A stretch of 35,798 nucleotides of DNA from NCBI GenBank assembly GCA_013816615.1, contig JACDED010000022.1:8823-44620 (forward strand), read 5' to 3'. This DNA is from Bacteroidota bacterium (lineage in GTDB: Bacteria > Bacteroidota > Bacteroidia > B-17B0 > Aurantibacillaceae). This document shows positions 2,025-35,600 of the stretch, piece by piece (the first letter of the stretch is position 1; each line of letters starts with the position of its first letter). Under the pieces are notes generated by a model, which was not told the DNA's origin, did no database searches, and saw only the letters and a program-made list of their open reading frames with translations. Both the position numbers and the translations under genes were made by a program.

Positions 2025-4394
2025 ATGTATTTACGTCTTCATTTATTTAAAACGATCTTAGGAATTTTTCTGATCTTTTTAACTGCACTTTCATTTTCTC
2101 AAAATATTCATAACAATCCGCAATCCAATCACGGCAATAAATTTGAACAATTAGGAACCATACTTCCTACGCCTAACGAATACCGTACTGCTTCGGGCGC
2201 ACCGGGAAATAAATACTGGCAGCAAAAAGCAGATTACGATATTGATGTAAAGCTGGATGAAAAAAATCTTTCGATCGTTGGTACAGAAACTGTTACCTAT
2301 CACAATAACTCACCGGATAATTTAAATTACATCTGGTTACAGCTGGATGAAAATCAACACGACCCAACAAATGAAGTAAATTATTTTGATGAGAATAAAG
2401 TACAAGAACCTGTGACCGAACAAGCATTAAAAGGTTTACAAACAAAACAAAATTTAGCCGGCCTTGGCGATAAGATCGACGCCGTTACTGATGAATCAGG
2501 CAAAGCCCTAAAATATACCGTTAACGGAACAATGATGCGCATTGATCTGCCAAAAACATTATCATCTAAATCAAAAACAAAATTTATTATTAAGTGGCAT
2601 TATAAAATGATCAACCGTACTCAATATGGTGGACGTGGCGGTTACGAATATTTTCCTGAAGATGGAAATTACTTATTTACACTGACACAGTGGTACCCAC
2701 GCTTATGTGTGTACAGCGATTTTCATGGTTGGCAAAATAAACAATTTACAGGTCGCGGTGAATTTGCTTTAGCATTTGGAAATTTTAAAGTAAAAATGAC
2801 TGTGCCTTCGGATCATTTGGTTTGTTCAACCGGTGAATGTCAAAACTATCAACAGGTATTAACGCCTGCACAATTTGCAAGATGGACAAAAGCACAAACC
2901 GCTACAGAACCTGTAGAAATTGGTCTTTTAGCAGATGCTATTGAAGCAGAAAAAAGTGGTGAAAAAGGTGCAGCAGCACAAAAAACAAAAACATTTATTT
3001 TTAAAGCGGATAGTGTACGTGATTTTGCATGGGGCAGCTCACGTAAATATTGTTGGGATGCAATGCCGGTTAAAGTAGAAGGCAAGAAAATAATGTGCAT
3101 GAGTTTTTATGGTAAAGAAGCTTATGGTCTTTACAGAAAATATTCAACAAAAGTTGTAGCGCATACTATTAAAACCTATTCAAAATATACAATTCCTTAT
3201 CCTTACCCTGTTGCTCAAAGTATAGAAGCTGCAAATGGTATGGAGTACCCAATGATCTGTTTTAATTTTGGAAGAACAGAAAAAGACGGAACATATACTG
3301 AAGGTTCTAAGAATGGAATGATACTGGTTATTATTCACGAAGTTGGCCATAACTTTTTTCCGATGATCATTAACTCCGATGAACGCCAATGGAGTTGGTT
3401 AGATGAAGGCTTGAATACTTTTGTACAGTTTTTAACCGAACAGGAATTTGATTCTAACTATCCTTCGCAACGCGGACCCGCACATAAAATGACAGATTAT
3501 ATGCGTTTACCAAAAAGTCAGTTAGAACCAATTATGACCAACAGCGAAAATATTATTGGTTTTGGTCCGAATGCATACGGCAAACCAGCAACGGCTTTAA
3601 ATATTTTACGCGAGACTGTAATGGGCAGAGAATTATTTGATTTTGCATTTAAACAATATTGTACGCGTTGGGCTTTTAAACATCCGGAGCCGGCAGATTT
3701 TTTCCGCACAATGGAAGATGCAAGTGCTGTTGATCTTGATTGGTTTTGGAGAGGCTGGTTCTATGATATTGAACCCGTAGATATTTCTATTGATACTGTA
3801 AAAGCATTTACGGTTGTAAAAGGAAACAGAATTCCTGTATTGAATGACACGCTTTATACCTATCCAAAAATGAAAGAATTTGAATTCATTACAAAAACAA
3901 GGAATAAAGAAGCTGGATTAAAATCGTTAGTAGATGTGGATACAACACTACGCGATTTTTATTATCACTATAGTCCAAAAGAGCTCACAAAAGAAGTAAA
4001 GAACCGCTTTGATGAAATTGAACCCATAAGCGATACTGCCATTGCAAAATATGACGACAAATTTATTTACGAAATTAAATTCTCAAATAAAGGCGGTTTG
4101 GTCTCGCCATTAATTATACAATTTAATTATGCGGATGGCAGCAGCGATGTTGAACGTATTGGCGCTTATGTTTGGCGCAAGAATGAATATGAAGTAAGTA
4201 AAACATTTATGAAGAATAAAAAAGTAGTTTCAATTCTTTTAGATCCAATGCGTGAGACCTGTGATATTAACGAGCGCAACAATACCTGGAACATTAAAAC
4301 AGAACCAAATAAATTTGACCTATTTAAATCTAAAGCTGCAAAAACCCGCGGACAAAGCACCGGAGAAAATCCGATGCAAAAAGCGAAAAAATAG
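2025..4394 (+). CDS. Exported M1-family metallopeptidase
   Basis: The protein has 789 residues. A signal peptide occupies residues 1-26, ending LSFSQ. The catalytic gluzincin core is complete: HEVGH at 438-442 supplies two zinc-binding histidines and the general base Glu, and E461 in WLDEGLN supplies the third ligand at the usual spacing of 18 intervening residues. ANGMEYPM at 403-410 stands where M1 enzymes have the GAMEN exopeptidase motif. The N-terminal part is the usual beta-sandwich (IVGTETVTYHNNSPDNLNYIWLQLDEN). M1 enzymes remove N-terminal residues from peptides; with a signal peptide this one should act in the periplasm or outside. The C-terminal 200 residues follow the WFWRGWFYDI end of the helical region and have no recognised domain. 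A terminator follows at 4442. Confidence 0.9.
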   Translation: MYLRLHLFKTILGIFLIFLTALSFSQNIHNNPQSNHGNKFEQLGTILPTPNEYRTASGAPGNKYWQQKADYDIDVKLDEKNLSIVGTETVTYHNNSPDNLNYIWLQLDENQHDPTNEVNYFDENKVQEPVTEQALKGLQTKQNLAGLGDKIDAVTDESGKALKYTVNGTMMRIDLPKTLSSKSKTKFIIKWHYKMINRTQYGGRGGYEYFPEDGNYLFTLTQWYPRLCVYSDFHGWQNKQFTGRGEFALAFGNFKVKMTVPSDHLVCSTGECQNYQQVLTPAQFARWTKAQTATEPVEIGLLADAIEAEKSGEKGAAAQKTKTFIFKADSVRDFAWGSSRKYCWDAMPVKVEGKKIMCMSFYGKEAYGLYRKYSTKVVAHTIKTYSKYTIPYPYPVAQSIEAANGMEYPMICFNFGRTEKDGTYTEGSKNGMILVIIHEVGHNFFPMIINSDERQWSWLDEGLNTFVQFLTEQEFDSNYPSQRGPAHKMTDYMRLPKSQLEPIMTNSENIIGFGPNAYGKPATALNILRETVMGRELFDFAFKQYCTRWAFKHPEPADFFRTMEDASAVDLDWFWRGWFYDIEPVDISIDTVKAFTVVKGNRIPVLNDTLYTYPKMKEFEFITKTRNKEAGLKSLVDVDTTLRDFYYHYSPKELTKEVKNRFDEIEPISDTAIAKYDDKFIYEIKFSNKGGLVSPLIIQFNYADGSSDVERIGAYVWRKNEYEVSKTFMKNKKVVSILLDPMRETCDINERNNTWNIKTEPNKFDLFKSKAAKTRGQSTGENPMQKAKK

Positions 4395-4424
4395 TTGTCA
4401 CCCTGAGCGGAGTCGAAGGGCAAC
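4394..4424. repeat. GAGCGGAGTCGA-type dispersed repeat (single unit)
   Basis: GTTGTCACCCTGAGCGG followed by AGTCGAAGGGCAAC begins right at the stop codon of the M1 gene; its ends GTTG and CAAC are complementary. It shares the core GAGCGGAGTCGA with the paired repeat at 5253-5308. Confidence 0.6.
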
Positions 4425-10950: not shown

Positions 10951-13900
10951 TCATATTTTAACACCGATCAAACAAACGTCATCAACCTGCTCTAATCCAC
11001 CTTTCCATGATTCAAAAGCTTCATCGATAATGATCTTTTGTTCATGCATTGGTTTTTTAGAAACACTTAAAATAAGTTCTTTTAGATTTTTGAATTTGAA
11101 TTTCTTTCCTTTTTCACCACCAAATTGATCAGCATAACCATCGGTTACGAGGTACACCTGGTCGCCCGGCAATATATCGATTTGATTTAATTCAAATTTT
11201 TTACCATCAGTAGAATGTCCTCCGATAGAAAATTTACTTGGCCTGAATTCTAAGATCTCTTCACCACGGATAATTAAAAGCGGGCGATGAGCTCCTGCAT
11301 AATTTAATACCTTATCATTTTTAGAATATGCACAAAGTGCAATATCCATACCATCGTTAGCAGAACTTTCTGAACTCTTTTTGATCAATTGAACCAGTTT
11401 TTCATCAATGCGTTTTAAAGCATCAGCCGGGCTGGTGATTTTTTGATCATTAATTACCTTGTACATGATATCGCTGCAAATAAGCGACATAAATGCGCCA
11501 GGAACACCGTGACCAGTGCAATCGGCAGCTGCAAAAACAGTAGTGTTGCCAAAATGCTCGAACCAGTAAAAATCACCACTTACAATATCTTTTGGTTTGT
11601 ATAGAATAAAACTATCTACAAAATTTTTATTGAAATCGTCAATATTTGGTGCAATTGCCTGCTGAATTTTTTTAGCGTATTTAATACTATCCGTAATATC
11701 TTTATTTTTTTCTTCAATGATCGCTTTTTGCTTGATCACTTCTTTTGTACGCTCTTTTACTTTTTCTTCAAGATTTTGATACAGGTTAGCATTATCCAAT
11801 GCAATACCTACCGAAACCGCTAATGTTTTTAATATATTGAATTGATATTCAGAATAAGCATTCTTCTCAAAACTTTGTACGGTTAAAACTCCAATTGTAA
11901 CATCCTTAGAAAATACAGGAAGATAAATAATAGAAACAGAATCTTGCCCTGAAACAGGGGCCTGCATTCCTGAAATATATTTTTTATACTCTATTGTATA
12001 ATCATTAATATGGATCTCTTTTTGTCCGCTAAAACATTGCGCTGCTAAACGGTTAGGATCATCAGATCTATATGAGAAATTATCCATGAAATTATTATTC
12101 TCAACAAAACCTTTAAACTCTAATTCGTTTGTTACAGGATTATTAAGGCCGATACCAAACATGGTAGCATCCATTAATTTATTTACATTTTCGTAAACCT
12201 TGCTGTTAATAGTTTCTACAGATAATGAAGCGCTAATGTCTTCTGCGATCTGGCTCAATAAACGTGTGTTCTCATAAGCAACACGAATCTCTTCGGTTCT
12301 TTCTTTAACACGTTGATCTAAATTATTATAAAGTGAAGCATTATCCAAAGCAATAGCAGTATAAACAGCTAAGCTTTTTAATAATTGTAAATGATAATCA
12401 GTATAAGAATTTACTTTAAAACTTTGAACGGTAATTACACCAATGCGTTTTGTGCCTTGTGTAATTGGCACGTATATAATTCCCTCAGGTAACTCTCCTT
12501 GTTTTGCGGCAATATTAGTTTGTCCGTAATCGCGGGCATAATTATTTATTAAATAATCTTTTTGCTCGGTAAAACATTTTATGGCCGGGCGATGCGTTTC
12601 TTTAAGGTTATGGGAGAATACTGATAATTTTTCGCCACGCTCTATCACTCCTTCAAACACAATGCACTCATTTTTTGGATCATAGATACCAATACCAAAA
12701 ACGGTAGCATCCATTAATTTATTTACACTCTGGTAAACCTTAGCAATAATATCTTCAATAGAGAATGTACTTGATATCTCTTTACCTATCTCGCTAACCA
12801 AACGCGTGTTCTCGTATGTTTTTACGATCTCTTCTTTTTGTTTAACAACTTCAAGTGTTCTTTCATTAACTTTTTCTTCAAGAGTTTGATAAAGATTAGC
12901 ATTATCTAAAGCAATGCCAATTGATACTGCTAGATTTTTAAGGATACTTACATGATAATCTGTATACGAGTCTTTTTCTAAACTCTGAACGGTAATAACA
13001 CCAATTACTTCATCTTTAGAATAAAGGGGCAAATAAATAATTGACGATGTAGCTTTACCATATATTGGTTTTACTTCAAGCGTAATATATTTAGAATGTT
13101 CGTTAACAAAATCGTTAATAATGATCTCTTGTTTATTATGAAAACACAAAGAGCCTAAACGATTAAGATCAGTAACATCTATCTGAAAATTTGGAACAGT
13201 CTCATTATTTTCTCTAAAGCCATTAAACTCTAAAACATAATTTTGCGGATCGAACAATGCAATACCAAAACTATCGGTACGCATTAAACGGTTTATGTTT
13301 TTATAAACCGAAGACACAATTGTTTCGATAGAAAGCGAAGAACTTAATTCTTTTGCTATCTCTCCCAACAAACGTGTATCGTTATAATTTTTTTCGATCT
13401 CTTCTGTTCTTTCTTCTACCCTGGTTTCAAGATTAGTGTATAAAGAAGCATTATCCAATGCAATAGCCGCGTATGTTGCCACACTTTTTATTAATTGCAA
13501 ATGATAATCATTATAAGCGTAGGCTTTAAAACTTTGTACCGTAAGAACACCTATTTTTTTGTTATTTTGAGTGAGCGGAATATAAATGATCGACTCTGTA
13601 TTTTTGCCTGGAATAGAATTTCGATTTTGAATTTTATTTGTTTTTAAAAACTCTTCTGTAAAATCATGGATCACATAATCTTCCTGTTTTGTAAAACAAA
13701 TAATGGCTGGCCTTACTATATCAGTTAATTCATAATAATAATCCTCGAGCTGCGCGCCATCTTCAATAACACCTCTAAAATTAATACGTTTATCTGTAGG
13801 GTCATAAATACCAATACCAAACATGGTGGCATCCATTAATTTATTGATGCTGTTGTATACTTTACTGATAATTTCTTCGATCGAGAATGTGCGTGAGATC

Positions 13901-16170
13901 TCTTTACCAATTTCACTTACAAGTCGTGTATTCTCGAATGTTTTTTCAATTTCTTCTTTTTGCTTAACAACTTCAATGGTACGCTCTTTCACTTTATCTT
14001 CCATATTCTCATACAGGTAAGCGTTTTCAAGTGCTGTAGCTGTATAAGTAGCAAGTGTTTTTAATATCTCAAGGTGATGTGGTTGGTATGCATTAAATTT
14101 AAAACTCTGAACAGTAATAACACCAATTAGTTTTTCACCTATCATCATTGGCGTAAACATTAAAGAGTTTGGCATATCGCCGGTAACTACTTTAATTTGC
14201 TTAACATATTTAGAGTATTCTTTTTTATTATCGTTTAGAAAAATATCTTTTTTATTCTTGATACACCAAACAGTATAATTATCATCGTCGGTTAAGGGAA
14301 TGGTCATTACTTCTTCGTAAACCTCACCTTTTTCCATTTCAAATCTATACTCAACAGAATTGATCTCCGGTTTATATATACGAACACCAAAGCATTCAAC
14401 CGACATGATCTCATTGATGTTATAATAAAGGTCTTTAAAGATCTTTCCTAAATTTAAGTTAGAAGTGATCTCGCGGCCGATCTCATTTATTTTTTTGTTT
14501 GTCTGGTATGCCTTTTCAATTTCTTCTTTACTCTGAACCAACTCTTTGGTCCTTTCTGCAACTTTTAATTCCTGCTCTTCGTACATCTTTGCATTTTCTA
14601 ATGCAATAGCTGTATAAGTAGCAAGATTCTTAAAAATGTTATAATGATAATTGTTGTAAGCATTTTTATTAAAGCTCTGTACGGTCATTACCCCAAGCAA
14701 AGTATCTTTATAGCGTAATGGTAAATAAATAATAGAAGCTACATTTCTGCCTGCCTTCGGTTTACTAACGTTAGTTAAAAAATTACCGATCTCATTTTCG
14801 TAATCGTTAATAATAACATCTTTTGCCTGGTTAAAACATAAAGAAGTTAAACGATTATCATCATTCAATTCGTATTTTAAATTCTCAAATTTTTCGTCTC
14901 CTTCAATATATAACGGATAAACAATGGTGTGATCTTCGGCATTGTACAAACCAATACCAAAACCCGGAGCATCCATTAACTCGTTAACACTTTTGTAAAC
15001 TGTTGTTACAATGGTGGCAACCGATAGGTTGGAAATAATCTTCTGCCCTACTTCACGCATCAACACTAAGCTTTCCGAAAAATTTTCAAGTTCTTTTGCG
15101 CGTTCTTCTAATATTGCTTTTTCAGCCTGCGATTGTAATACTTTATTTTGAAGTTCTAAACTTTTTGAAAGTTGTGCGCTTTTATGATTACGTACATCTT
15201 CTTTAGCCTGGTGAAAGATCTTATAAAATTTTAAAGCTTCATTAGAATTCTTTTGTTGTTCGTAAAGCTCTGCTAATTTTTCACTTGCCTGGTAAACACC
15301 TTCTTTACTTGAGATCTGTTTTGATAGTTCGTAAGCCTCAGTCAAATTTTTAATAGCATTTATGCTATCACTTTTTTGAATATATAATTTACCAATATTA
15401 CTTAATGTTGTAGCAACACCAAATTTAAATTCTATGTTTTTTCGGATCTGTAAGCTCTCGCTGTATTTTTCAAGCGCTGTATCAAATTGCTTTAAACCTG
15501 TATAAGCCCTGCCCAAACCATCTAGTGCAAATGCTGCCACCCTGAAATTGCCGGTAAGAACCGCAATAATGGCAAGACATTCATTATAATAATCAAGCGC
15601 TTTGTGATAATCTTTTAAATTGTAATAGGTTTCACCTAATCCATCCAATACTTTAATGAGAATGCTTTTAAGATCATTGTCTCTGCAAATTTTTTCGCTT
15701 CTAGTTAAAACATCTAATGCGCTTTCGTTTTGTTCGATGGTATAATAAACGGTACCCATACCATTAAGGCCATCTGCCATACCAAATACAAAATCAATTT
15801 CTGTACTGATGTCGTAACTTTTTTTGTAATATTTAATGGACGTATCGTAATCTGATAAATAGAAAAAATTACTTCCTAAAATGTAATTTGTTTCTGATTC
15901 GTTCTTTTTATCTTTTAAAACCTGGAATAACGAAATAGCTTCAAAACAATAATTTGCAGCATCTTCGTTCTTTGCAACCCACACATGGCAAGCACCCAGT
16001 GTTTTTTTAGCATGTGCAATACCATTAATATAATTTAAAGAAACAGATTGCTCGAGTGCTTTAGTAGCCAGTTCAATAGCTTTTGGGGCATTTTCACGAT
16101 TTAAACTCCATGCTAACGAGTTTAATTCATCAATTTCAAGTGTAGAATTATTTAAAGCTTTTGTGCTCAA
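10951..16170 (-). CDS. Giant TPR - six GAF - PP2C (SpoIIE-type) phosphatase
   Basis: The protein has 1739 residues and no signal peptide or membrane segment, so it is cytoplasmic. Residues about 10-330 are tetratricopeptide repeats (ALDYYNECLAIIAVL, ALEKYSESLQIR), followed by a coiled coil to about 375. Six GAF domains follow, near 365-530, 557-720, 752-908, 933-1092, 1125-1282 and 1305-1460. Each ends (V/I)(L/M)TVQSF...Y..YH...LK.LA.Y.AIAL(E/D)NA.LY and is joined to the next by an ERT-rich coiled coil. Residues 1493-1739 are a SpoIIE/RsbU-type PP2C phosphatase: KDIVSGDFYWFE, AADCTGHGVPGAFMS and LVTDGYADQFGG carry the metal-binding Asp/Gly residues. Such proteins normally dephosphorylate anti-sigma antagonists in partner-switching pathways. 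No anti-sigma antagonist gene is adjacent, and the GAF ligands are unknown. Confidence 0.9.
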   Translation of the reverse strand: MSTKALNNSTLEIDELNSLAWSLNRENAPKAIELATKALEQSVSLNYINGIAHAKKTLGACHVWVAKNEDAANYCFEAISLFQVLKDKKNESETNYILGSNFFYLSDYDTSIKYYKKSYDISTEIDFVFGMADGLNGMGTVYYTIEQNESALDVLTRSEKICRDNDLKSILIKVLDGLGETYYNLKDYHKALDYYNECLAIIAVLTGNFRVAAFALDGLGRAYTGLKQFDTALEKYSESLQIRKNIEFKFGVATTLSNIGKLYIQKSDSINAIKNLTEAYELSKQISSKEGVYQASEKLAELYEQQKNSNEALKFYKIFHQAKEDVRNHKSAQLSKSLELQNKVLQSQAEKAILEERAKELENFSESLVLMREVGQKIISNLSVATIVTTVYKSVNELMDAPGFGIGLYNAEDHTIVYPLYIEGDEKFENLKYELNDDNRLTSLCFNQAKDVIINDYENEIGNFLTNVSKPKAGRNVASIIYLPLRYKDTLLGVMTVQSFNKNAYNNYHYNIFKNLATYTAIALENAKMYEEQELKVAERTKELVQSKEEIEKAYQTNKKINEIGREITSNLNLGKIFKDLYYNINEIMSVECFGVRIYKPEINSVEYRFEMEKGEVYEEVMTIPLTDDDNYTVWCIKNKKDIFLNDNKKEYSKYVKQIKVVTGDMPNSLMFTPMMIGEKLIGVITVQSFKFNAYQPHHLEILKTLATYTATALENAYLYENMEDKVKERTIEVVKQKEEIEKTFENTRLVSEIGKEISRTFSIEEIISKVYNSINKLMDATMFGIGIYDPTDKRINFRGVIEDGAQLEDYYYELTDIVRPAIICFTKQEDYVIHDFTEEFLKTNKIQNRNSIPGKNTESIIYIPLTQNNKKIGVLTVQSFKAYAYNDYHLQLIKSVATYAAIALDNASLYTNLETRVEERTEEIEKNYNDTRLLGEIAKELSSSLSIETIVSSVYKNINRLMRTDSFGIALFDPQNYVLEFNGFRENNETVPNFQIDVTDLNRLGSLCFHNKQEIIINDFVNEHSKYITLEVKPIYGKATSSIIYLPLYSKDEVIGVITVQSLEKDSYTDYHVSILKNLAVSIGIALDNANLYQTLEEKVNERTLEVVKQKEEIVKTYENTRLVSEIGKEISSTFSIEDIIAKVYQSVNKLMDATVFGIGIYDPKNECIVFEGVIERGEKLSVFSHNLKETHRPAIKCFTEQKDYLINNYARDYGQTNIAAKQGELPEGIIYVPITQGTKRIGVITVQSFKVNSYTDYHLQLLKSLAVYTAIALDNASLYNNLDQRVKERTEEIRVAYENTRLLSQIAEDISASLSVETINSKVYENVNKLMDATMFGIGLNNPVTNELEFKGFVENNNFMDNFSYRSDDPNRLAAQCFSGQKEIHINDYTIEYKKYISGMQAPVSGQDSVSIIYLPVFSKDVTIGVLTVQSFEKNAYSEYQFNILKTLAVSVGIALDNANLYQNLEEKVKERTKEVIKQKAIIEEKNKDITDSIKYAKKIQQAIAPNIDDFNKNFVDSFILYKPKDIVSGDFYWFEHFGNTTVFAAADCTGHGVPGAFMSLICSDIMYKVINDQKITSPADALKRIDEKLVQLIKKSSESSANDGMDIALCAYSKNDKVLNYAGAHRPLLIIRGEEILEFRPSKFSIGGHSTDGKKFELNQIDILPGDQVYLVTDGYADQFGGEKGKKFKFKNLKELILSVSKKPMHEQKIIIDEAFESWKGGLEQVDDVCLIGVKI

Positions 16171-18173: not shown

Positions 18174-19262
18174 ATGAATGTAGCTTTTTTATGTTTGGGC
18201 GGAAATATTGGCAACCGGATAGAGAATCTAAATCTCACAAAAAAAGCCATTAGCCGTATTTTAGGCAAACTAACAGCTCAATCACAGGTGTACGAAACGG
18301 CAGCCTGGGGAAGTGATTCGGCTAATAAATACCTGAACCAGGTAATTAAAATACAAACCAAATTAAGCGCACAAAAACTTTTAACCAGCGCATTGGCTAT
18401 TGAAAAAAGTCTTGGCCGAAAAAGAGGAGTAACAAAAAATAACGATAGAACTATTGATATTGACGTGCTGTTTTTTAATTCGGAAATAATTAAGGATAAA
18501 AATATCCAGATCCCGCACCCTCGTTTACACATGCGCAACTTTGTTTTAAAACCACTAAATGATATTGCAGCCGGTTTTATTCATCCTGAATTAAAAAAAT
18601 CTATCGCTGTTCTATTAAAAAACAGTAAAGATAAATTATCGGTAAAAAAATATGATGGAATAAAAAGCCTTAAATACATTTGTATTGAAGGTAATATTGG
18701 ATCCGGAAAAACCACGCTGGCAAAGGTGTTAGCGAAAAAATTAAGTGCACACTTTTTGCCTGAAGAGTTTGAAGATAATCCGCTATTACCGTTATTTTAC
18801 GAAAATAAAAAACTTTTTGCTTTTCCTTTAGAATACAGTTTTTTAGTGAGCCGTTTTAAACAATTAAATCAAACATTAAAAACAGAAAAAAAATTAGTTG
18901 TAAGCGATTATAGCTTATACAAATGTTTATGGTTTGCGAAAAATAATTTAGCAAAAAAAGATTTTACCCTTTTTAAGAAACAGTTTAAGCTTATTGCTGA
19001 GCAACTACCAAAACCCGACCTGATGGTTTATTTAAATACAACAACTAAAAATTTAAAACAAAATATAAAAAAACGTGGCAGAAAATACGAGCAAAGTATT
19101 TCTGAAGACTATTTAAACAATATCAGTGCGCAATATGATAAGGGTTTTGCTAAAATAAATGATATAAAAACACTACGCATAACAGTTAATACGTACCATC
19201 AAAAGCTTGAAGAAGCGTCTGTACAGGCGATTAATAACTTTATAAAAGAAAATTTTGGCTAA
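18174..19262 (+). CDS. folK: Fused HPPK (FolK) - deoxynucleoside kinase
   Basis: The protein has 362 residues and two enzymes in one chain. Residues 1-135 are 6-hydroxymethyl-7,8-dihydropterin pyrophosphokinase: FLCLGGNIGNR at the start and NDRTIDIDVLFF at 90-101, with D95 and D97 binding magnesium, and IPHPRLHMRNFVLKPL. HPPK makes the activated pterin for folate synthesis. Residues 165-362 are a deoxynucleoside kinase: a P-loop GNIGSGKTT at 173-181, the LEYSFLVSRFKQ helix, the DYS motif (equivalent to the DRS arginine motif but with Tyr), and the lid region KKRGRKYEQSISEDYL. dNKs phosphorylate salvaged deoxynucleosides. This fusion is known in Bacteroidota. The dNK specificity cannot be read with certainty. 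Both domains look intact. Confidence 0.9.
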   Translation: MNVAFLCLGGNIGNRIENLNLTKKAISRILGKLTAQSQVYETAAWGSDSANKYLNQVIKIQTKLSAQKLLTSALAIEKSLGRKRGVTKNNDRTIDIDVLFFNSEIIKDKNIQIPHPRLHMRNFVLKPLNDIAAGFIHPELKKSIAVLLKNSKDKLSVKKYDGIKSLKYICIEGNIGSGKTTLAKVLAKKLSAHFLPEEFEDNPLLPLFYENKKLFAFPLEYSFLVSRFKQLNQTLKTEKKLVVSDYSLYKCLWFAKNNLAKKDFTLFKKQFKLIAEQLPKPDLMVYLNTTTKNLKQNIKKRGRKYEQSISEDYLNNISAQYDKGFAKINDIKTLRITVNTYHQKLEEASVQAINNFIKENFG

Positions 19263-32699: not shown

Positions 32700-33172
32700 A
32701 TGAAAAAAGAACATCATTATAAAGCAAATATAACGTGGACAGGTAATCCGGGACATGGAACAATTAATGCTGCTGCATACAGCCGTGATCATACTATATC
32801 AGTTGCAAACAAAGTTAATATTCTTGCTTCATCCGATACACCTTTTCGCGGTGATGGAACGAAACATAATCCTGAAGATCTTTTGCTTTCCTCTTTATCT
32901 GAGTGCCATATGTTATGGTATTTACATATTTGCGCAGATAACGGTATTACTGTTATGGCATACGTTGACAATGCAGAAGGTATAATGACCCAAAATGAAG
33001 ATGGTGGTGGTCAGTTTAAAGAAGTAACCTTAAATCCTGTGGTTACAATAACAGACACATCTCAAATAGAAAAAGCTAACGCTTTGCATCATGAAGCAAA
33101 TAAAAATGTTTTATTGCAAACTCCGTTAATTTTCCTGTTAAGCATAATCCAAGTAGTTCTGTAAAAAAATAA
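32700..33172 (+). pseudogene. OsmC-family peroxiredoxin-like protein with a frameshift near the C-terminus
   Basis: In frame, 154 residues run from 32700 to 33164. The first 135 match the OsmC/Ohr family (HHYKANITWTGNPG, HNPEDLLLSSLSECHMLWYLH with C69, and DNAEGIM). After HHEANK the sequence should continue CFIANSVNFPV, carrying the second redox cysteine. Those codons are present in the -1 frame, from TGT at 33107 to TAA at 33170-33172. The switch is at five A residues (33102-33106); a sixth A would restore a full protein of about 157 residues. As written, the second Cys is lost. OsmC proteins reduce organic hydroperoxides. The gene follows the metzincin by 7 bases. Confidence 0.85.
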
Positions 33173-33200
33173 ACCAAAAAAAAGAGAAAAAATGTTCTTT

Positions 33201-33397
33201 GGACGTGCCCCGCAGCCTGCGCTGAGCCCGACGAAGCGGGCCGCGTTTTACGCTGCAAGTCCTCGCTTCGCTGTGGGCTTTTCGCTACAATCGCTCACGC
33301 AGATTTTCGTATGGCATGCGTGAGGGATACGAAGGGCTTGGTGCGAAGCACGGGAGTGAAACGCACCCGTAGAAGCCCGGCCTGAAAGGACACGCCC
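33201..33397. repeat. GC-rich structured non-coding element
   Basis: The 197-base stretch is much richer in G and C than its surroundings and has no coding frame. Its edges, GGACGTGCCC and GGACACGCCC, pair as 8 of 10 terminal inverted bases. Inside are GCCCG/CGGGC (33226-33230, 33237-33241); CTCACGCA (33294-33301) with TGCGTGAG (33317-33324) interleaved with TTCGTAT (33306-33312) and ATACGAA (33327-33333), a pseudoknot order; and a long stem GGGCTTGGTGCG (33334-33345) with CGCACC (33362-33367) and AAGCCC (33373-33378). It sits between convergent genes. From memory, elements with GGGCGTGYCC edges recur in Bacteroidota intergenic DNA. Confidence 0.65.
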
Positions 33398-33446
33398 AAA
33401 TTAAAATTTTTAATATAGAATGTTGAAACCTAAAAAAACAGAACTA

Positions 33447-35600
33447 TTACTTCACCAATTTCATCTCGTTTAATAAATAGCCTGCGCCGGCATATTTATC
33501 TACCATCCACAATGTAAATCTTACATCCAAAACAATGTTACGGCAAAAGCTGCCATTGTACATTACATCGCTCATCGTACCTTCCCAGTTACGGTCAAAA
33601 TTAGTTCCTATTAATTCGCCTTTGGCATTAATGACAGGGCTACCGCTGTTACCACCTGTTGTATGATTACTTCCGGTAAAAGCAATATGTAACTTGCCGT
33701 TTTTATCTGCATATTGTCCAAAATCTTTTTTCTCGTATAATTCCAATAAACGCGGCTTCACATAAAAATCTTCAAGGCCCGTTTTATTTTTGTCAACCAT
33801 TCCATCAATTGTTGTGTAATGTAAATACTGCACACCATCTTTAGGTTGATAATCTGCCACTTTACCATAAGTAACGCGTAAAGTACCGTTGGCATCCGGA
33901 TAGAATTTTTTATCCTTAACATTATCCATAAGGCCTTTCATGTAGGTTTTTTGCAATTCATTTATCTGGCGATCATAATAACCTATTTGAGGTAATACTG
34001 TTTTTTGATAATGAACCAAAATACTTGAAGCCAATAAATACATTGGATCGCGCTCGTAAAGTGCTGCATTTTTTTCAAAATCAGCAAACATGATCTTTGC
34101 CTTTTCATTGTCTACAAAGCTTGAATTGTTGTATAAGAAATCGGTTAAGGCTCCAACATTTCCATTGTGCACATTTAAAAGTGAATCTAAAAAACGCGGC
34201 ATAAACTCTCTATCTGTGTTAGCAACGTATACCTCCAACATTGCTTTGCAAAGCTTTCTATCTGTTTCTTTATTAAAATTCTTAAAAGGAATTGCAGGTT
34301 TGTTATCTTTAAATGCAGTCTCGAATTTATTATCCTTTCCTGCTTGTTTTTTTCTTAGTTCATTAAATACAACAGTAAAATTAGCAGTGAATCTGAAAGC
34401 CTCAACGCCCCATAAACACTCAGTAAAATAATCGTACTGTTTGCTTAAGGGTGCATAATCTGCATAGGTTCTTTTAAACTCTGCAAACAGGTTCTTATAT
34501 AATTCAGCTTTTTTTGGATCGCTGGCAACAAGTGCCAGAAAATCTGCTTCCTGTTTTTTCTTTTTATTTATAGCATCAGATTTTTGTAAGCCAAGCATTT
34601 CGCCGCTCCATTTTTTATAGTAGTTTGCTACACCCGCATATTTTGCAGTATACATTAAACGCAGGGTATCGTTCTTTTTCATATCTGCATCTAAAATATT
34701 TAAACGTTTTTCGCGAAGGCTTACACGTAAAGGATCTTGTTGATTGATCAACAGATCAACTGCGTAAGAAGTTAAATATTCTTGTGTTCTTCCAGGGAAA
34801 CCATACACCATTGTAAAATCCCCTTTTTCAACTCCTTTTAAAGAAATAGGAAATGAATGAAGCGGTGTATAAGGAATATTTTCCTGGTTAAAATCAGCAG
34901 GTTTATTTTCCTTATTACCGTAAATTCTAAACATACTAAAATCAGCATTGTGTCTTGGCCAAACCCAATTATCTGTCTCGCCACCAAATTTACCAATGCT
35001 TTCAGGAGGTGTGCCAACTAAACGAATATCTTTAAATGTTTCTACAACAAATAAATAATATTCGTTACCATAATAAAAGGGGCGAATAAAAGAATCAAAA
35101 TGTGAATCTTTTTTTGCTGCTACCTCCAACGCTTTAATATTTGATTGAATTGCTGAATCTTTTTGAATCTCCGAAAAAGCTGACTTAATACTTCCCATTA
35201 CTTTTGCAGTTACATCCTCTATTCGTTTAATGAACGTAACAGTTAAACCCGGACACATCAGTTCTTCATTCGGCTTCATTGCCCAATAACCATTTTTTAA
35301 ATAATCATTTTGTACGGTGCTTAAACCCGCAATAGATGAAAAACCACAGTGATGATTGGTTAAGATCAATCCTTTGGTGGAAATTACCTCAGCAGTACAA
35401 CCACCGCCAAATATGGCAACAGCGTCTTTCATACTTGCTTTATTGATACTGTAAATTTGTTCCGCTGTTAATTTAAAGCCATTCTTTTTCATATCCTGAA
35501 AATTCAGTGCTTCAATTAATTGTGGCATCCACATTCCTTCATCTGCTTTTGCAAAAAAAGAAACCAACGTAAAAACAATAATTATTTTTTTCATTTTCAT
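33447..35600 (-). CDS. S46-family dipeptidyl-peptidase, DPP11-like
   Basis: The protein has 717 residues, the normal length of the family. Signal peptide 1-19 (ending FFAKA). The mature part begins DEGMWMPQLI, the S46 signature. The catalytic histidine is H84 in LTNHHCG and the serine S652 in TGGNSGSPV. Eighteen residues after that serine is R670 (GTNFDRNWEG). In the best studied enzymes this position is Arg in DPP11 (Asp/Glu-specific) and Gly in DPP7 (hydrophobic), so a preference for acidic P1 residues is inferred. Such enzymes cut dipeptides from peptides in the periplasm. The second Met (residue 3) is an equally possible start. The gene is 11 bases downstream of the partial gene at 35612 and probably co-transcribed with it. 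Confidence 0.92.
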   Translation of the reverse strand: MKMKKIIIVFTLVSFFAKADEGMWMPQLIEALNFQDMKKNGFKLTAEQIYSINKASMKDAVAIFGGGCTAEVISTKGLILTNHHCGFSSIAGLSTVQNDYLKNGYWAMKPNEELMCPGLTVTFIKRIEDVTAKVMGSIKSAFSEIQKDSAIQSNIKALEVAAKKDSHFDSFIRPFYYGNEYYLFVVETFKDIRLVGTPPESIGKFGGETDNWVWPRHNADFSMFRIYGNKENKPADFNQENIPYTPLHSFPISLKGVEKGDFTMVYGFPGRTQEYLTSYAVDLLINQQDPLRVSLREKRLNILDADMKKNDTLRLMYTAKYAGVANYYKKWSGEMLGLQKSDAINKKKKQEADFLALVASDPKKAELYKNLFAEFKRTYADYAPLSKQYDYFTECLWGVEAFRFTANFTVVFNELRKKQAGKDNKFETAFKDNKPAIPFKNFNKETDRKLCKAMLEVYVANTDREFMPRFLDSLLNVHNGNVGALTDFLYNNSSFVDNEKAKIMFADFEKNAALYERDPMYLLASSILVHYQKTVLPQIGYYDRQINELQKTYMKGLMDNVKDKKFYPDANGTLRVTYGKVADYQPKDGVQYLHYTTIDGMVDKNKTGLEDFYVKPRLLELYEKKDFGQYADKNGKLHIAFTGSNHTTGGNSGSPVINAKGELIGTNFDRNWEGTMSDVMYNGSFCRNIVLDVRFTLWMVDKYAGAGYLLNEMKLVK

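Follow-up and report, generated by a model that had tools for sequence, protein, structure and literature searches.

What is the GC-rich, folded stretch that lies between two convergent genes in the 35,798-nucleotide stretch of Bacteroidota DNA analyzed here (the window)? The element occupies positions 33201-33397, and both neighbors read towards it, an OsmC-like gene on the left (32700-33164, plus strand; PF02566, 42 bits) and a peptidase S46 gene on the right (33447-35600, minus strand; PF10459, 742.5 bits). The first-pass annotation had described a GC-rich stretch of 197 bases with near-complementary ends and two perfect stems in the order a-b-a'-b', and these features are borne out: the GC content is 62% against 34% across the window, the ends are nearly complementary, and stem a (8 bp; CTCACGCA at 33294-33301 with TGCGTGAG at 33317-33324) interleaves with stem b (7 bp; TTCGTAT at 33306-33312 with ATACGAA at 33327-33333). 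Its judgment that such a fold would hardly arise by chance was also correct. In comparison with dinucleotide shuffles, the plus strand gave z = -2.64 (3/200 shuffles folded as well) and the minus strand z = -4.58 (0/200); since shuffles rarely or never fold as well, the stretch is structured beyond chance.

The element is repeated throughout its genome, with 54 BLAST matches to the window stretch and 55 matches to its end pattern, compared with 1 in the control. The aligned copies are modular, with ends of the form TTTGGGCG..., several kinds of internal arm, and a center of the form ...CTCACGC-spacer-GCGTGAG...; relatives often carry one half alone, terminating at CTCACGC. The half is therefore the basic unit, and two of these stand head to head in the window. 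A covariance model (R1), which recognizes 58 units in the genome, resolves the window copy into a left unit on the plus strand (33200-33300; 77.7 bits, E 2.5e-18) and an inverted right unit on the minus strand (33318-33398; 34.3 bits, E 1.1e-6), separated by a 17-nt spacer (33301-33317) that contains half of stem b. Three parts make up the fold that defines the unit, namely the closing stem (P0), a side hairpin (P1) whose tip varies, and a long arm (P3/P2) that contains paired internal loops. In the left unit, P0 joins 33203-33207 to 33296-33300, the first pair being A.C in the window copy, and the arm is of the AAGTCC/GGGCTT type. The tip of its P1 is long (33211-33241, plus strand) and has a CTGAGC..GACGAAG core that resembles REP-type palindromes in a motif scan, whereas side-by-side comparison of ends showed that the tip is short and TTCG-like in other units. 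The right unit is closed by GCGTG/CACGC (33391-33395 with 33318-33322) and bears a different arm type, GGGCTTCTACGGG...AAGCCC. Parsed units measure 77-183 nt after the trimming of false starts, share a conserved core common to several families, and occur singly or, in the genome of the window, mostly as head-to-head pairs.

The paired positions of the fold covary strongly. In the alignment A1 of 34 diverse units (30 of 63 parsed units, a few with trimmed starts, together with L012, L026 minus strand, L036, and L099), the 21-pair structure of the model has 97.3% standard pairs, and 11 pairs are changed on both sides; the covariation score is 0.217 versus 0.072 for shuffled alignments, with 0/500 shuffles as good, and the signal is destroyed by sliding the partners. 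The closing stem is of the type GCGTG/CACGC in 47, GCGTT/AACGC in 28, and GCGCC/GGCGC in 14 of 110 unit entries, the remainder being rare; these entries were kept from 200 regex candidates and include some alternative starts of one unit (103 distinct 3' ends). Its partners pair within units in 529 of 550 cells, against a mean of 434 on random re-pairing, under a regex pattern that holds the first three pairs largely fixed and the fourth limited and leaves the fifth free. Because both multiple copies and compensatory changes are present, the suggestions of a structured element family and of a mobile palindromic element made in the first-pass annotation are supported. Its anatomy survives in part. 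The folded element is real, but the outer and central stems are mostly pairings between units that are broken in other copies: in 25 complete two-unit elements (24 in the genome of the window and 1 in the genome G012), 19 of which mix different closing-stem types, broken pairs amount to 6/250 in intra-unit stems and 56/250 in inter-unit stems. Spacer lengths in the two-unit elements of the genome of the window fall into clusters around 14-16 nt and 26-29 nt; a small palindrome like AAGTTTCCGAACTT is contained in many of these spacers.

Units were found in 33 of 40 genomes of the same genus and in 50 of 296 genomes sampled across the phylum Bacteroidota (27 of 140 genera). They are present on plasmids of Bacteroides, Parabacteroides, and Phocaeicola (65 records; 80 with a closer query, which added one from Butyricimonas). 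On phage-like contigs, five of six pattern stretches are units, two of them (L299 and L302) near-identical, and the sixth (L298) was dropped as a chance match in a coding region. One of these units sits between the genes for a head protease and a major head protein; the genes that precede the unit in L302 and L303, to which no Pfam or PHROGs family could be assigned, may, judged by eye, be large terminases. Phage GenBank records gave 0 matches in one search and 1 in another. In three independent contexts on phage-like contigs and Bacteroides plasmids, the GGGCG with which the unit starts shares the TAG stop codon of the preceding gene (L302, near 8926; L303, near 286 on the reverse strand; L307, near 722; L310, near 2986).

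Comparison of orthologous sites shows gain or loss of units. Seven named relatives retain the S46-OsmC gene pair, and all seven lack the unit there; at the kbl-mutS locus, 3 of the 9 syntenic genomes among L268-L278 have an element, shortly 3' of the kbl terminator, with different arms in each. In the genome of the window and in other families, the unit begins at GGGCG directly after TT and ends at CACGC, and the sequence common to two 8-kb regions of Bacteroides plasmids is limited to 198 bp, which stop at the 3' end of the unit. No inverted ends or duplication were found outside the unit in the genome of the window and in other families, and in the former there was no consistent target duplication (a repeat of at least 7 nt in 20/25 cases versus 15.9 by permutation). 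The congener G018 holds about 40 units, many near-identical, which lie mostly inside an element of 229-290 bp (larger values reflecting nested or misplaced ends) with the ends GGGTCAAGCGGAA / TTCCGATTGATCC. An 8-bp duplication with 7 or 8 matching positions flanks 16 of 24 of these elements, compared with a permuted mean of 1.14 and a highest value of 5 in 200 permutations; usable ends were lacking at a further 8 of 32 loci, and ends were misplaced in some of the 8 non-matching cases, among them L377 and L400, where duplications are visible by eye. G018 has 31 occurrences of the end pattern, whereas none of seven other genomes has more than two. In G018 the unit thus rides as cargo in a short inverted-repeat transposon (MITE) with 8-bp target duplications, while elsewhere the unit's own ends form the borders. 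At several G018 loci (L374, L379, L382-L391, and L396), a second, partial 5' unit end precedes the unit, as might result from recombination or nesting of hairpin tips.

Three other explanations of the window element must be weighed against a mobile repeat. The perfection of stems a and b in the window copy would suit an H-type pseudoknot RNA, but as a feature of the family we consider this extremely improbable, and as a conserved one it is refuted: stem b is found in 1 of 34 paired elements, that of the window alone, and stem a joins two units and is mismatched in many two-unit elements. A spacer-to-arm match of at least 6 bp likewise occurs once in the 34 paired elements, in the window copy, with a mean of 3.97 in permuted pairings. 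The transcript end shared by the convergent genes that had been proposed, that is, a bidirectional terminator, is also very unlikely. The convergent neighbors at the window locus would suit a terminator, as would the 21 convergent cases among 48 paired-unit entries for which both neighbors were called; however, the same entries include 16 tandem and 11 divergent cases, and a separate terminator precedes several copies. The flanks themselves run in the reverse of terminator order, with T before the hairpin (at flank position -1 in 98% and at -2 in 90%) and A after it, so that no U tract follows the hairpin in either direction.

The remaining alternative, a functional RNA, is bound up with Flavo-1 (RF01705), which Rfam classes as an sRNA. 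In the genome of the window, 19 matches exceed the Flavo-1 gathering cut-off of 42 bits, and all lie inside units, on the strand opposite to that of the unit; the arm of the left window unit (33235-33308, minus strand) reaches 23.6 bits, below the cut-off. R1, which was built without Flavo-1-type arms, matches all 19 loci. Flavo-1 is thus the inner arm of units of one type, and the Rfam "sRNA" is one arm of a wider element family. The arm stands in the homologous position in both, but the Flavo-1 model, with 76 positions, represents one arm as read on the opposite strand, includes neither the closing stem nor P1, and fails to recognize most other arm types; in 20 unit-bearing loci from other families, it reaches threshold twice, one of the two matches falling outside the listed unit. 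One locus from another family (L324) carries a SAM riboswitch and a Flavo-1 match about 100 bases apart (74-193 and 301-405). The RNA was described by Weinberg et al. in 2010 (PMC2864571). The idea that units are transcribed and act as sRNAs or cis elements, with the fold kept for RNA function and mobility secondary, would agree with the strong covariation, the conserved loops, and the sRNA classification, and a strand preference might be read from the T.G pair that is invariant in 34/34 units or from the better folding of the Flavo-1 strand in 79/103 units. These two strand clues conflict, however, and wobble counts do not settle the preference, as wobble and A.C cells are otherwise equal (5 and 6). 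Nor do gene contexts, counted with a simple ORF chooser and not from annotation, show a sense bias in relatives, where single units are sense to neighboring genes in 12 cases and antisense in 10; in other families, the figures are 10 and 18. A paper on the F. psychrophilum transcriptome (PMC9723704) states that Flavo-1 matches are sense or antisense indistinctly and that many lie outside transcribed regions. We therefore regard a primary RNA function as unlikely.

The window stretch is a real structured repeat and belongs to the REP/MITE kind of dispersed element; it probably represents two units of a mobile structured element that is dispersed and non-autonomous. Its spread can be rationalized as follows: (i) an enzyme whose gene lies elsewhere would copy units in trans, for which the most likely route, proposed tentatively by analogy with the REP/RAYT and IS200/IS605 systems, is an enzyme that reads the folded single strand; (ii) units may, in addition, be carried passively by MITEs, plasmids, and phages; and (iii) head-to-head pairs could arise if a second unit inserts beside the first or if one event copies an inverted pair. 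Such a scheme would require no host function. On the other hand, the core is conserved across families more strongly than would be required of a decaying repeat, which may point to a function. This counts against the account, as do the lack of a transposase tied to the units and of a consistent target duplication in the genome of the window.

RAYT was examined as mobilizer of the units and an ISL3-type transposase (PF01610) as parent of the G018 MITE; no mobilizing enzyme was identified in these searches, and no transposase was tied to the units. The genome of the window has a RAYT gene (109 bits) with a unit 480 bp downstream, and RAYT genes are present in the genus; RAYT was rejected as mobilizer because linkage and correlation are weak, a unit lying within 1.5 kb of 2/30 RAYT loci of the genus and copy numbers giving a Spearman coefficient of 0.35 and a Fisher p of 0.08 with no tree correction. 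The end of the G018 MITE resembles ISL3 ends; PF01610 was found in 0 of 4 genomes, which disfavors an ISL3 transposase as its parent.

Among known repeats, integron attC sites are imperfect palindromes with a variable tip that often lie just behind a gene and carry a GTT/AAC core. The present units share the first three traits but not the fixed core, as their closing stem shifts to GCGTG/CACGC and GCGCC/GGCGC. BOX and RUP of pneumococcus are interchangeable modules with many copies per genome, as are the present units, which differ in that one conserved core extends over many families, plasmids, and phage-like contigs. REP/REPIN units measure about 20-40 nt, and the RAYT gene is flanked by repeats. 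Like them, the units here are dispersed intergenic palindromes, single or in inverted pairs, in a genus with RAYT genes (compare PMC3733652); they are, however, about 77-183 nt in length with a branched fold, as opposed to 20-40 nt, and the RAYT genes here are not regularly flanked by units. MITEs, such as the IS982-derived MITE of Cardinium (PMC9769881), are equally short, non-autonomous, and dispersed, and the G018 element has their inverted ends and 8-bp duplications; units in the genome of the window and in other families differ in that neither feature was found outside the unit, and no parent transposase was found (PF01610, 4 genomes).

No description of the unit was found among the open-licence papers listed in literature searches, which does not prove its absence elsewhere. 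More speculatively, the units may form a class of selfish modules that spans the phylum, is defined by its fold, and has not been described as such. Its members would move between chromosomes, conjugative plasmids, phages, and unrelated transposons and would be recognized by their branched fold, in which stems covary and hairpin tips can be swapped; Flavo-1 would be only a fragment of such a module, and the class's own mobilizing enzyme would be a transposase or recombinase system of a new, structure-reading kind. The abundant, catalogued RNA family Flavo-1 would, if this is true, be reclassified as part of a mobile structured repeat, changing both the annotation of its matches and the search for a function, and Bacteroidota, including gut Bacteroides plasmids and phage-like contigs, would share a dispersed module that can be followed in its spread and effects. 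Units that close on themselves and have swappable tips also lend themselves naturally to tests of DNA recognition by structure-reading enzymes.

Several further features of the window deserve mention. At 33090-33164, the 3' end of the OsmC-like gene is still similar in DNA to the close relative L120 but differs from it in reading frame, apparently through a one-base frameshift or a sequencing error. Another REP-like palindrome of a different kind, CACCCTGAGCGGAGTCGAAGGG, stands at 4404 (plus strand), directly behind the gene at 2025-4394. One reading frame at 18174-19262 (plus strand) combines an HPPK (folate) domain with a deoxynucleoside kinase domain, and that at 10951-16170 (minus strand) encodes a protein of 1739 aa that contains TPR repeats together with some six GAF domains and a SpoIIE phosphatase domain.
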